From contig NZ_JAHKPU010000006.1 of assembly GCF_018860505.1 (NCBI RefSeq), positions 2,501 through 61,373 of the forward strand: DNA of 58,873 nucleotides. The letters are read 5' to 3'. The notes beneath the pieces were generated by a model. That model ran no database searches and had not been told where the DNA came from. It worked only from the letters and a program-made list of their open reading frames with translations. This document shows positions 3,571 through 12,895 of this stretch, piece after piece (positions within the stretch are counted from its first letter, which is position 1; every line of letters begins with the position of its first letter). A program made the position numbers and the translations under genes. This DNA is from Pacificibacter marinus. GTDB lineage: Bacteria > Pseudomonadota > Alphaproteobacteria > Rhodobacterales > Rhodobacteraceae.

Positions 3571-3647
<77 letters not shown>

Positions 3648-9291: not shown

Positions 9292-10869
9292 TTACAAGAA
9301 CCGCTTTTCTTCCAACAGATCTGGCAGGTCGTTTTCATAGAGAACGACGTCATCCTTGGTGAGCGTTTTTGCAATTGCTGCGCGAGCGGCGAAAAAGGTT
9401 GGCACTTCGATCACTTCAGCCGTCTCGTGTTTTGCGGCTGTCACAAAACTGTCAATGCGGCTTGGGTTAACAGCGTAAATCACATCGCAACGCGTGCCTG
9501 AATAACGGCCCAAACGATCATGAACGCGGTCGTGCTCTAACCCGAGTTCTGCAATGCCAGGGGTTACAAGAATACGGCGTCCACCACGGTGTTTTGCCAA
9601 TTTGTCCAGCGCCGAGACGGCAGACATAAAGCCAAGCTCGTTAGAGTTGTACGCATCATCAAGAATAAGCGCAGAGCCAGGTGTGTCGATCTTTTGCAAA
9701 CGGTGCGGAATTTGCGCGATGGTCTTGGTGAAATAGGGGATTTGATCAGCCGTGCTGGGGTCAATCAACAGCGCAAGCGTCACAGCCAAGGCGGCGTTCA
9801 TCACGTTATGATCACCGATCAAGGGCAATTCAAAGGTCAAAGCAGGGATGCGCGCGTTCTTAGAATTGAGCGCGATCGACCATGATCCACCTTCGATCTC
9901 AACAGCATCGATGGTGACATCGGCACCTTGCAAGCCGACGGTGACGATCTTGTCGCCGTATTTGTCTTTCAGGGCTTTAAACGCCGCATATTGCATCACA
10001 TCGGCATTGATCACCATGGTGCCGCCAGCAATGCAGGTCTCGGCCGCCAGTTCGGATTTCGCCTGTGCGATGGCGTCAATACTGCCAAAGCGTTCTGTGT
10101 GCGCGTCACCCACAGCCGTGATGATGCCGTATTGCGGATGGATAAAGTCACACAGGCGTTTGATCGATCCGATGCCGTAGGCCCCCATTTCAGCCACAAA
10201 ATATTTATGCGAATATTGCAAGCGTTGGCGAATGTGGCGTGTGTGACCTAGTACCGTATTGATCGATCCGGGACTGTAAAACACCGGACCAGAGGTTTCC
10301 AAAATTTCTGCAAACATGTGTTTGACTGTGGTTTTGCCAAACGATCCTGTGATGCCGATGCGAATGGGATCAAGGGTTTCCAATTTTGTGCGAGCTTGAT
10401 CGACAAAGCCTTCGTTGATGCGATCTTGGAAAGGCTTCAAAATCATATTCGCGGCGATCAAGGCAAAAGGCACGGCTTGCAACACGAGGATTGCAAAAAT
10501 GGGATGTAGAAACACCAGCAATGCACCAAGGCCCAAAGGCAGCAAAGCCAACCGCCATATCCGCATAGCGCGCTGGGTTTTGGCCAATGGTTTTTTATAG
10601 CGATACTGACGCTCCATATAGGCGATGATCACAAAGACTGCGGCGAGCAAAATAAGGCTCAGGGCTTTGGGCAAGGCCAGTCCCGCAAGCAAGATGATCA
10701 CGACAGCAGCCGATGCGCGCATGTCGAACAGGCGCACATCGCGGCTTGAGGCGACGAACCGTGTGCCGTCATATTCCTCTTGCTGGAAATAGGTCAGTAG
10801 GGTGGTGGTGCGCTGCACAACCAAACAGGCGAGCGCGGCGATCAGTAAAACTGTGGCGAAAAGGATCAT
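9292..10869 (-). CDS. Membrane-anchored Mur ligase (MurF-like)
   Basis: A 525-aa protein. Residues 1-145 contain several hydrophobic segments (about 1-20, 52-86, 105-143), which ordinary MurF lacks. The rest is a Mur-ligase: P-loop GITGSFGKTT (172-181), AEMGAYGIGSI, the ITAVGDAHTERFGS substrate region, AKSELAAE with the carbamylated-Lys position, GDHNVMNAALAV, and the C-terminal LDDAYNSNELGF. Such enzymes join an amino acid or dipeptide to a carboxylate using ATP. Its start overlaps the stop of the hydrolase gene before it (ATGA), and a D-Ala-D-Ala-ligase-like gene diverges next door. The housekeeping murF is expected elsewhere in the cell-wall cluster, so this looks like a specialised paralogue; its acceptor is unknown. 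Confidence 0.85.
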   Translation of the reverse strand: MILFATVLLIAALACLVVQRTTTLLTYFQQEEYDGTRFVASSRDVRLFDMRASAAVVIILLAGLALPKALSLILLAAVFVIIAYMERQYRYKKPLAKTQRAMRIWRLALLPLGLGALLVFLHPIFAILVLQAVPFALIAANMILKPFQDRINEGFVDQARTKLETLDPIRIGITGSFGKTTVKHMFAEILETSGPVFYSPGSINTVLGHTRHIRQRLQYSHKYFVAEMGAYGIGSIKRLCDFIHPQYGIITAVGDAHTERFGSIDAIAQAKSELAAETCIAGGTMVINADVMQYAAFKALKDKYGDKIVTVGLQGADVTIDAVEIEGGSWSIALNSKNARIPALTFELPLIGDHNVMNAALAVTLALLIDPSTADQIPYFTKTIAQIPHRLQKIDTPGSALILDDAYNSNELGFMSAVSALDKLAKHRGGRRILVTPGIAELGLEHDRVHDRLGRYSGTRCDVIYAVNPSRIDSFVTAAKHETAEVIEVPTFFAARAAIAKTLTKDDVVLYENDLPDLLEEKRFL

Positions 10870-11615
10870 GCTTGGCCCCGCTTCAACGTCTCAAGAATGT
10901 GGGTCGTCAATTGATGTCTGCCGCGCGACAGGATCGAGATGTGATCAAATTCAGGACATTCAACATAGGTGGAATTAGGAATGGCGTGGTGCAGCACCTT
11001 ACCCATGGCGGGCGGCGTCTCGGTGTCCTTGCCGCCATAAAGTAAAGTTGTGGGGCAGGTGATCTTGGGCAGATCTGGGGTTTGATCTTCTTCAACTGTG
11101 CGAATGAAAATATCGCGCAGGCCAAGCTCGCGGCTGTTCACATAATCCGCGCTGCCAAATTGCGCCTCAAGGGCAATCACTGCATCCTCAGATGTGGCGG
11201 CGGCTTTTTGTTTCTTGAATTGCCAGCCACGCCATTTGCCTTTGATCTGTTTTAGCAAAGGTCGGGGCAGTTTGATGCCCGCGCCACCCACGATATGCAG
11301 GTGTTCAATAGGTGAGTTCGCCATGGCAGCCAGACGCAAGCCAATGCGTCCGCCAAAGCTGTGCCCAACCCAGATAAACTTTGTGATACCCAACTCGGAC
11401 TTCAAGAAATCACGCACAGCAACAGCGTAATCTTGCGTGGTCCAGTCGCCTTCGGGGCGGGGTGATTTACCGAAGCCCGGCAGGTCCAGCAATACTGTGG
11501 GCGCGGCTTGACCTATCAGCTCTGCCGTTGGTACAAAATCCGTATGATCGCGGCCCCATCCATGCGCAAAAATGATCGGAGTGCCAGTCGCTGCGCCGCT
11601 CTTTTCATAGAACAT
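10866..11615 (-). CDS. Alpha/beta hydrolase coupled to Mur ligase
   Basis: A 249-aa alpha/beta-fold hydrolase. It shows the oxyanion-side HGWGRDHTDF, the nucleophile elbow WVGHSFGGRIG (Ser within GHSFG), a late acid in YGGKDTETP and a catalytic His in ECPEFDHISIL. The substrate is not predictable from sequence. Its TGA stop overlaps the ATG of the Mur ligase, so the two are made from one transcript and probably work in one pathway. It starts 110 bases from the divergent ATP-grasp ligase gene, so that gap must hold two promoters. Confidence 0.85.
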   Translation of the reverse strand: MFYEKSGAATGTPIIFAHGWGRDHTDFVPTAELIGQAAPTVLLDLPGFGKSPRPEGDWTTQDYAVAVRDFLKSELGITKFIWVGHSFGGRIGLRLAAMANSPIEHLHIVGGAGIKLPRPLLKQIKGKWRGWQFKKQKAAATSEDAVIALEAQFGSADYVNSRELGLRDIFIRTVEEDQTPDLPKITCPTTLLYGGKDTETPPAMGKVLHHAIPNSTYVECPEFDHISILSRGRHQLTTHILETLKRGQA

Positions 11616-11725
11616 GGATGTTTGCCTACTCTGCTGATATTCGCTTGGTCGACCACTAGATATGGTGCTTTATCTGTTTCTAGTGTATCGATTAAGCAAA
11701 CTCCATATGGATTGTAGGCAAACAC

Positions 11726-12895
11726 GTGAATAAGCTGAACTTAGCCGTCATTTTCGGCGGACCGAGCCAAGAACACGACGTCAGTGTTGTGAGCGCACAA
11801 CAATTGATGGACGCGGTTGATGTCCGTAAAATCAATGTCGTACCGGTGTATATGGGGTTCGATGGCCGCTTTATGCAGGGGCCCGCTTTGCGCCAATTGG
11901 ACCGTTTTCGCCCTGCGCCCAAAGGTCTGCGCGAGGTTGTATTTGCTTGGGGCGATATGGGGCCATGTTTGACATCAGTGGATGGCAGTTGGACCAAACA
12001 AATCGACTGCGCTTTGCCCGTATTTCACGGCCCCTTTGGCGAGGATGGCCGCATTCAAGGGGTGCTTGAAACCGTTGGTATCCCTTGCACTGGGTTTTCC
12101 GCGATCAATTCCGCTTTGGCGATGCGCAAAGATGCGACCAAATCGCTTGTCGCCTCTGTTGGTGTGAATGTTTTGCCGCATGTGGTGGTCAACGCCAAAG
12201 AAATGAAACACGCCGATGATGTCTGCGCACGTGTCGAAGCCGATCTGTCCTATCCGTTGATCATCAAACCCGCCAATCTGGGGTCTAGTATCGGGGTCGG
12301 ACTGGCCAAATCACGCGATGAATTGTTGGTGCATTTGCAAGGCGCGCTGAAAGAAGACAGTTTTGCTTTGGTCGAGCCACAGGTTCAAAATCTGGAAGAG
12401 CTGAACATCGCGGTGATGTACCGTGAGGGCGAGATCAAATTTTCCGCGATCGAGCGCCCTAAATCGTCAGCAGAATTGCTCGACTTTAGAGAAAAATACC
12501 TGTCCTCTGCCGAAGTGGGCAGCACGGGCAGCGGAAAACTGGGCAATACGGCTGTGCCTTCGCAGGGCATGTTGTCGCTGACGCGTGACATCAATCCTGA
12601 CATTGACCCTGATCTACAAGCGCGTCTTTATGATTTCGCCTCGAAGGCCTTTACCATCTTAGGTTTGCGCGGTGCGCCGCGGATGGATTTCATGCACAAC
12701 ACTGAAACTGGCGAGCTGTGGTTCAACGAGATCAATCCAATTCCTGGGTCTTACGGATTTTTCCTTTGGGAAGCTGCGACAGAGCAAGTGTTGTTTTCAC
12801 AATTGGCCGAGCATTTGATGCATGAGGCCTTGAGCGATAGTATCAAACACTTTGATGATCCGGTGCCGCAAGCTGCCTATCTGTTGCCGCGTTAA
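11726..12895 (+). CDS. D-Ala-D-Ala ligase-like ATP-grasp enzyme
   Basis: A 389-aa ATP-grasp ligase of the Ddl/VanA superfamily. Visible motifs are FGGPSQEHDVSVVSA (Glu16), HGPFGEDG (101-108), IIKPANLGSSIGVGL, and the Mg-ligand end RMDF...ELWFNEINPIPGS. The acceptor-binding end differs from housekeeping Ddl, which has N-T-x-P-G-x-T-x-x-S; here it reads NPIPGSYGFFLWEA. The omega-loop region (LLDFREKYLSSAEVG) also departs from the usual Y-D-Y-x-x-K-Y form. I infer another acceptor or a D-Ala-X product rather than standard D-Ala-D-Ala. It is divergent from the hydrolase/Mur ligase pair and its stop overlaps the stop of the next gene by a few bases. Confidence 0.85.
   Translation: MNKLNLAVIFGGPSQEHDVSVVSAQQLMDAVDVRKINVVPVYMGFDGRFMQGPALRQLDRFRPAPKGLREVVFAWGDMGPCLTSVDGSWTKQIDCALPVFHGPFGEDGRIQGVLETVGIPCTGFSAINSALAMRKDATKSLVASVGVNVLPHVVVNAKEMKHADDVCARVEADLSYPLIIKPANLGSSIGVGLAKSRDELLVHLQGALKEDSFALVEPQVQNLEELNIAVMYREGEIKFSAIERPKSSAELLDFREKYLSSAEVGSTGSGKLGNTAVPSQGMLSLTRDINPDIDPDLQARLYDFASKAFTILGLRGAPRMDFMHNTETGELWFNEINPIPGSYGFFLWEAATEQVLFSQLAEHLMHEALSDSIKHFDDPVPQAAYLLPR

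Follow-up and report, generated by a model that had tools for sequence, protein, structure and literature searches.

We identified, in a 58,873-nucleotide stretch of the Pacificibacter marinus genome (contig NZ_JAHKPU010000006.1, positions 2,501 to 61,373; hereafter the window), a three-gene module encoding a membrane-anchored Mur ligase, an alpha/beta hydrolase and an ATP-grasp enzyme related to the D-Ala-D-Ala ligase Ddl, denoted MurF2, ABH and DdlX, respectively. Based on sequence comparisons, this patchily distributed and probably horizontally spread module likely replaced the housekeeping Ddl and MurF in P. marinus. Replacement is suggested because MurF2 and DdlX are the sole MurF- and Ddl-like ligases found in the genome of the window (G000), the contiguous division and cell wall (dcw) cluster of this genome lacks both canonical genes and retains a ddl fossil, and the module and the canonical genes are distributed almost exclusively of each other. 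The same reading is supported by the other carriers, in which murF is mostly missing from the dcw cluster or decayed and DdlX can occupy the ddl slot, as well as by low dN/dS, conserved catalytic residues and MurF2 and DdlX distances that track each other.

G000 is a draft of 51 contigs, 96.7% complete. In profile searches, no murF or ddl other than MurF2 and DdlX was found in it. The Ddl N-domain model matched DdlX alone, and the other matches of the Ddl C-domain model and of TIGR01205 were frames that read as biotin-carboxylase and CarB-type proteins; the Mur_ligase_M matches were the three dcw-cluster ligases, one probable FolC and MurF2. Thus, MurF2 and DdlX look like the housekeeping copies. 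The original prediction, made from the window alone, saw the locus as an addition to the core pathway, with separate murF and ddl in the dcw cluster as the housekeeping genes; neither gene was found in that cluster or elsewhere in this draft, and that part of the proposal is not supported. Absence of any other murF or ddl was one of two findings that the prediction had named as evidence against itself; the second, a lack of co-occurrence in relatives, was not observed.

The dcw cluster of G000 runs contiguously through ftsZ, ftsA, ftsQ, murB, murC, murG, ftsW, murD, mraY, murE, ftsI and rsmH, where murB, murC, murG, murD, mraY, murE and rsmH scored over their NCBIfam cut-offs, ftsW scored just below, ftsI was recognized as a penicillin-binding protein relative, and ftsQ, ftsA and ftsZ were named by eye. 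In the congener G001, both slots are filled, the one between murE and mraY by murF and the one between murB and ftsQ by ddl. The murE-mraY and murB-ftsQ gaps are 160 bp and 281 bp in G000, and 160 and 295 bp in another congener, G010. Read as they are, the murB-ftsQ gaps of G000 (L012:5159-5439) and G010 (L049:8439-8733) match the first 56 and 69 residues, respectively, of the Ddl of the congener G002 (49.7 bits, 54% identity, and 53.5 bits, 51% identity), with an altered GGPS motif, whereas the best of 400 shuffled gaps reached 29.6 bits. Thus, ddl decayed in place, leaving a remnant that resembles the N terminus of Ddl.

The module is under purifying selection, with dN/dS of 0.031-0.093 compared with 0.019-0.070 for five dcw genes. 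The GC content of the module (52.0-54.1%), the window (52.9%) and the dcw locus (55.0%) is close, so that base composition was uninformative as a sign of recent transfer. Between G000 and G010 (window:9292-12895 and L048:5191-8794), dS of the module is 0.49-0.59, above the 0.30-0.38 of the five dcw genes.

Full-length MurF2 was detected in 5 of 61 genomes among relatives, that of the window included. Across samples drawn more widely, MurF2 was present in 23 of 385 genomes over the class (314-898 bits, against at most 176 bits for other Mur ligases; partial in one, G067), in 4 of 398 over the phylum, each belonging to the same class, and in 5 of 394 over the family. Mur ligases with a comparable membrane N-terminus may also occur in Patescibacteria, a candidate source of the module. 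The carriers are 30 different sampled alphaproteobacterial genomes, of which 25 come from the relatives and class samples, G694 and G716 from the phylum sample, and G798, G805 and G951 from the family sample. The genome behind locus L014 is a further carrier that may or may not be among those sampled, and a scan of genome contigs with DdlX alone returned two close relatives among the matches listed. Viral contigs yielded no related loci with query sets A2 and A5, and four loci at 29-30% identity with query set A4 (n=23). In tblastn searches of plasmids, DdlX matched 547 records, all below 60% identity, those among the matches listed being Van or Ddl ligases at ~30% identity; MurF2 matched 103 records, none covering 80% of the protein.

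Carriage of MurF2 and possession of a canonical MurF are close to mutually exclusive. The MurF model TIGR01143 scored over its cut-off in 3 of 25 carriers and in 31 of 35 non-carriers (Fisher p 3e-9; this and the following p-values are indicative only, because the non-carriers were hand-chosen, not random, and the genomes are not phylogenetically independent). At completeness of at least 90, the counts were 3/17 and 28/30 (p 2e-7). For the Ddl model TIGR01205, two of the 25 carriers passed the cut-off, against 31 of the 35 non-carriers (p 2e-10), all 60 genomes having some match; of the two carriers, G273 encodes a true second Ddl and G067 passes with its own DdlX. At an E-value of 1e-20, DdlX was the only Ddl match in 22 of the 25 carriers, the exceptions being G273, G086 and G105.

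Seventeen carrier dcw regions could be read for murF. In ten (G000, G010, G273, G258, G153, G094, G311, G405, G271 and G074), murE adjoins mraY, with no murF among open reading frames (ORFs) of at least 90 aa. Four others hold a diverged or decayed MurF: the G355 homolog (L150:6056-7348) has no P-loop match and no Pfam match and scores no more than 73 bits against a MurF model; G202 (L138:6911-9994) has a MurE-MurF fusion, the second half of which keeps a P-loop-like stretch and, by eye, lacks the NANP motif; the G255 homolog (L137:6615-8300; 224 bits) keeps the P-loop, its other motifs being unmatched; and the G420 homolog (321 bits) is over the cut-off, with substitutions, by eye, at the invariant His and at further motif positions. 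The homologs of G355, G202 and G255, all in the dcw murF slot, are possibly pseudoenzymes kept for another role. The MurF in the other three regions (G151, G694 and G716) looks canonical, and G234 has such a protein outside its module stretch. A 119-aa Ddl-like ORF in G420 (L123:11868-12224) was considered as a ddl relic and rejected, given that it aligns to residues 324-383 of an over-long comparison ORF, a region taken for an out-of-frame extension.

Several observations weigh against replacement. A MurF over the cut-off is present in 5 of the 27 carriers tested for canonical murF (G798, G805 and G951 being outside the murF/ddl count): G151, G694 and G716, in the dcw cluster (320 bits in G694 and 313 in G716), G234, elsewhere, and G420, with altered residues. 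MurF2 can, therefore, coexist with MurF. A canonical Ddl accompanies DdlX in G273, two additional, weaker matches to the Ddl family (124 and 115 bits) occur in G086, and G105, along with MurF2, has only a weak Ddl match of 123 bits that is not DdlX. Furthermore, 4 of the 35 non-carriers also lack a MurF over the cut-off, most of the genomes are drafts, and a search of the murE-mraY gaps of G000 and G010 at an E-value of 0.05 returned no remnant of murF. The five carriers with MurF, together with the Van and Ddl ligases among the plasmid matches of DdlX, could be taken to indicate an accessory wall-modification or resistance cassette acting beside housekeeping MurF and Ddl, as the original prediction had it. 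However, given the failure to find housekeeping murF or ddl in G000, the ddl fossil in its dcw cluster, the near-exclusive distribution and the lack, among the six window genes scanned, of any VanX/VanY-type M15 peptidase or VanH-type dehydrogenase of a Van-type cassette, we consider such a cassette very improbable.

As the original prediction held, the three genes form one set. All three occur in 29 of the 30 carriers (the DdlX of G086, on another contig, falls into two ORFs), relatives of P. marinus among them; in G105, MurF2 alone of the three was found. The genes are clustered in 23 of the 30, with gene order and strand that vary (e.g. L046, L165 and L166), which argues for selection on content. 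In G273 and G202, contig ends that fall within the ABH gene divide the module; MurF2-ABH lies apart from DdlX in G153 and G258, and DdlX-ABH apart from MurF2 in G255. The same trio is found again in distant loci, at 32-44% identity. Across 15 loci (105 pairs), the pairwise distances of MurF2, ABH and DdlX are correlated, with r of 0.87-0.89 (a comparison without a control of its own), and with r of 0.74-0.82 once the two closest pairs are left out (103 pairs, MurF2 distance >0.4). With MraY as a control in nine genomes (36 pairs), r was 0.80 for MurF2-DdlX, 0.41 for MurF2-MraY and 0.59 for DdlX-MraY. MurF2 and DdlX thus track each other better than either tracks MraY, which suggests a shared history that is partly their own. 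Because of the recurrence in distant loci, the low dN/dS and the correlated distances, the locus is not a chance assembly.

The positions of the module bear out the proposed link to the cell wall. In G355 and G420, it is located within the dcw cluster between murB and ftsQ, the ddl slot; in G273, DdlX adjoins ftsQ at a contig end and MurF2 adjoins murB on another contig; and in G027, DdlX lies beside ftsI and rsmH. In G000, the module is elsewhere, and the murB-ftsQ slot holds the ddl fossil. An all-against-all BLAST of neighboring ORFs revealed no widely recurring fourth gene, apart from dcw genes, synteny of close relatives and small clusters of 3-4 genomes. Peptidase_M15_3 was rejected as a module member, being near the module in two distant loci only (L014:6674-7177 and L047:6020-6589).

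MurF2 consists of a hydrophobic N-terminal region followed by Mur_ligase_M and Mur_ligase_C domains. It scores 207 bits against TIGR01143, below the cut-off of 288.6, with positions 64-400 of the 418 in the profile aligned, and its best matches in the Protein Data Bank (PDB), by sequence and by fold, are MurF. We compared 24 MurF2 proteins, leaving out G173 (over-long ORF), G067 (partial) and the later-found G694, G716, G798, G805 and G951. The ATPase core is kept: T174, G175, S176, G178, K179, T180, H257, K271, N358, D404 and D405 are the canonical majority residue in 24/24, and the P-loop residues among them (T174, G175, S176, G178, K179 and T180) are also present in all 19 canonical MurF, which were picked from 32 loci by a pattern with G..GKT and D.[YF]N[AS], so that those columns are biased. 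Other motifs differ consistently between canonical MurF and MurF2, namely, NNxxG to NTxxG, GMNxxGEI to GAYxxGSI, NANPxSM to NSNxxGF, LGDMxELG to TPGxxELG, and KGS to END. In particular, T205, A230 and Y231 stand for the canonical N, M and N in 24/24; we take these positions to lie on the UDP-sugar/tripeptide side. In the phylogenetic tree, MurF2 forms a clade apart from the 19 canonical MurF (support 0.92).

Residues 1-166 of the window MurF2 are hydrophobic, with three hydropathy peaks above 1.6; across the 24 proteins, the N-terminal peak hydropathy is 1.9-3.0, compared with 0.57-1.45 in the canonical set. Some N-termini are over-long, because ORFs were begun at the first start codon that follows a stop. 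The structure model of this region is all helices (pLDDT >80 in 15 of the first 17 ten-residue blocks). No match to PF01225 was found in MurF2 by Pfam scan, whereas a match is present in 4 of the 7 MurF proteins or relics of the dcw type that were scanned. In the sequence and the model, then, a predicted helical hydrophobic domain occupies the place of the UDP-MurNAc-binding domain of canonical MurF.

This replacement of a domain, together with the changed motifs nearby, raises the question of the acceptor. The suggestion of a membrane-bound acceptor in the original prediction is plausible, and we think that a lipid-linked tripeptide would be about as likely an acceptor as a soluble one. In one version of the soluble case, MurF2 would use UDP-MurNAc-tripeptide, the membrane domain would serve as an anchor to MraY or the divisome, and the order of the pathway would be unchanged. 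The conserved catalytic core is compatible with this, and some Mur ligases are known to associate with enzymes of the membrane steps; one paper names MurG as a scaffold in its title (PMC6420597). The missing PF01225 match and the substitutions at T205, A230 and Y231 speak against it, and we regard an anchor of this kind as a doubtful, though serious, possibility.

DdlX contains Dala_Dala_lig_N and Dala_Dala_lig_C domains and scores 229.5 bits against TIGR01205, below the cut-off of 245.65; the protein from G067 is the sole other DdlX to pass it. Its predicted fold is that of Ddl (model pLDDT 83.6; best Foldseek match VanG, 4fu0, E 1.4e-29). In the 24 DdlX compared (G086, split; G105, with none; and G694, G716, G798, G805 and G951 were left out), E16, K135, K181, S187, S188, K257, Y258, R319, D321, E335 and N337 are invariant, positions that we take to be the ATP-, Mg- and first-D-Ala-binding sites. 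DdlX forms a clade apart from 29 canonical Ddl (support 0.99), a set from 29/29 loci kept by the pattern E[HR].[VI]S and [EN].N..PG, such that those columns are biased and that of the acceptor Ser is not.

The altered loop that drew attention to DdlX, NPIPGSYGFFLWEA, proved to be a family signature. The acceptor-loop Ser, found in 29/29 canonical Ddl, is Phe in 16 and Tyr in 8 of the 24 DdlX, and TxxSLxP of canonical Ddl becomes xx(Y/F/H)(F/Y)L(W/F)(E/K), with Thr replaced by Phe, Leu, Tyr, Ile or Val, and Pro by Glu (23) or Lys (1). This Ser presumably holds the carboxylate of the second D-Ala in Ddl. The omega loop, also described as altered, is so only in part: the surrounding residues differ, and the Lys-Tyr pair (K257 Y258), which we take as a mark of peptide-forming Ddl, is invariant in 24/24.

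The changed acceptor loop, the NSNxxGF motif of MurF2 in place of NANPxSM, with other motifs changing in step, and the M15_3 peptidase genes near the module at L014 and L047 would all suit a module that installs another terminal dipeptide or depsipeptide (D-Ala-X) and so alters the end of the stem peptide, with ABH trimming wrong or normal ends. Other features do not fit: S11 D-Ala-D-Ala carboxypeptidase homologs are present in 25/25 carriers and 34/35 non-carriers; FtsI, in its G000 dcw translation, keeps KTGTAD, which we assume to have a role in carboxylate recognition; and the omega-loop Lys-Tyr is kept. Moreover, in G151, G420, G234 and G694, the MurF over the cut-off, if active, would need to use the DdlX product; in G716, which also has such a MurF, another weak match to the Ddl family scores 67 bits. 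An altered stem end of this type is, in our view, unlikely. The evidence favors D-Ala-D-Ala as the probable end of the stem peptide, because the S11 homologs are kept and the few carriers with a MurF over the cut-off have DdlX as the only strong Ddl.

ABH is probably active, because the putative triad S86, D197 and H225 is kept, as it is in 15/15 ABH compared. The named models closest to it are those of lipase/esterase and lactonase families, with scores that fall far short of the cut-offs. In G049, a HicB-like antitoxin gene (L045:4301-4723) lies between MurF2 and ABH.

Under replacement, the terminal dipeptide, most likely D-Ala-D-Ala, possibly with a masked or different second residue, would be made by DdlX and joined to the MurNAc-tripeptide by MurF2 at the membrane. 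ABH would act on this dipeptide or on what is made from it, for example by hydrolyzing an ester mask on the acceptor carboxylate, or by proofreading, and the outcome would be a pentapeptide for penicillin-binding proteins. That a mask covers the acceptor carboxylate while ligation proceeds and comes off afterwards is a guess, made because the carboxylate-binding Ser is missing and a dedicated serine hydrolase is at hand. More tentatively than replacement itself, we propose that the stem peptide is completed after the lipid step, MraY loading UDP-MurNAc-tripeptide on undecaprenyl phosphate, MurF2 adding the DdlX dipeptide to lipid I/II, and ABH lifting a mask from this dipeptide or proofreading it; in this way, the order of the peptidoglycan pathway could be changed by a transferable module, a scheme to which we give somewhat less than an even chance.

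The gene layout in the window was confirmed as originally described, with the overlap of MurF2 and ABH and the divergent DdlX (Table 1). Past the end of DdlX, on the other strand, an AlkZ-like DNA glycosylase gene with no obvious link to the module (window:12892-14187) overlaps DdlX by 4 bases at its 3' end. Farther away, window:3768-6102 holds an IS21-like istA/istB pair beside a tRNA-Met gene (3571-3647) and an apparent rRNA operon, the insertion sequence and the rRNA being named by eye. In the dcw cluster of three congeners, a malate/lactate-dehydrogenase-like gene, named by eye, lies antisense between murD and ftsW (L012:10913-11929, L049:14206-15222 and L144:12123-13061).

Table 1. Features of the three-gene module, in window coordinates
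Feature	Position	Strand	Description
MurF2, membrane-anchored Mur ligase	9292-10869	-	525 aa; MurF-like ATPase and C-terminal domains
MurF2 N-terminal ~166 residues	10372-10869	-	all-helical hydrophobic domain (predicted); invariant R20, Q29, Q30, Y33
MurF2 P-loop TGSFGKT, residues 174-180	10330-10350	-	
ABH, alpha/beta hydrolase	10866-11615	-	249 aa; Abhydrolase_1; 4-nt overlap (ATGA) with MurF2 start
Divergent intergenic region, ABH/DdlX, 110 bp	11616-11725	.	
DdlX, Ddl-like ATP-grasp ligase	11726-12895	+	389 aa; sole Ddl family match found in genome
DdlX acceptor loop EINPIPGSYGFFLWE, residues 335-349	12728-12772	+	replaces ExNTxPG(M/F)TxxSLxP

To conclude, we rate the module as known enzyme superfamilies in a new, apparently replacing arrangement. 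MurF and Ddl catalyze textbook, essential and drug-targeted steps. According to a passage of a review on obligate intracellular bacteria, every organism believed to have peptidoglycan carries genes for Ddl, MurD and MurF, with specificities that may vary (PMC5814848), and one passage on Buchnera states that some lineages without MurC, MurE and MurF still make peptidoglycan (PMC10591338). Loss of MurF thus has a precedent in Buchnera; what would be new is a dedicated module standing in for the MurF/Ddl pair, with the fossil of the lost ddl still visible. Among the matches listed, the module is not described in the open literature surveyed, which comprised no preprints and few subscription papers. 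The carriers offer a natural experiment on the order of the pathway, on which substrates MraY and MurG accept, and on the peptide end required by penicillin-binding proteins, and they hint that a supposedly universal pathway can be rewired. If completion at the lipid stage is true, a transferable three-gene module would reorder the peptidoglycan pathway. In practice, these lineages may be misjudged where genome annotation takes murF and ddl as markers of a complete cell-wall pathway.

Among known systems, MurF2 is most like MurF (TIGR01143), with which it shares the P-loop, Lys271, His257, Asn358, Asp404-Asp405 and the fold of domains 2-3; unlike MurF, it falls below the model cut-off, has the helical membrane domain instead of the UDP-MurNAc domain and changed motifs on the specificity side, and belongs to a separate clade. 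That MurF2 ligates D-Ala-D-Ala to MurNAc-tripeptide we infer solely from the replacement of murF. DdlX has the same fold as Ddl (TIGR01205), VanA, VanG and the Leuconostoc ligases and keeps the nucleotide, Mg and first-D-Ala positions, but it is below the Ddl cut-off, has a replaced acceptor loop and forms its own clade. MurF2 also recalls the lipid II amidating complex MurT-GatD, in which a Mur-ligase-fold enzyme without a UDP-MurNAc domain acts with a partner on a lipid-linked precursor, and it has weak PDB matches there (6gs2 and 7q8e, ~29 bits). However, the partner ABH is an alpha/beta hydrolase, not a glutaminase, and MurF2 is closest to MurF, with its membrane domain and without a MurT-type Pfam domain. 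Finally, the coupling of a hydrolase to a Ddl-like ligase resembles that of the VanX/VanY D,D-peptidases, although these are M15 metallopeptidases, whereas ABH is an alpha/beta hydrolase.

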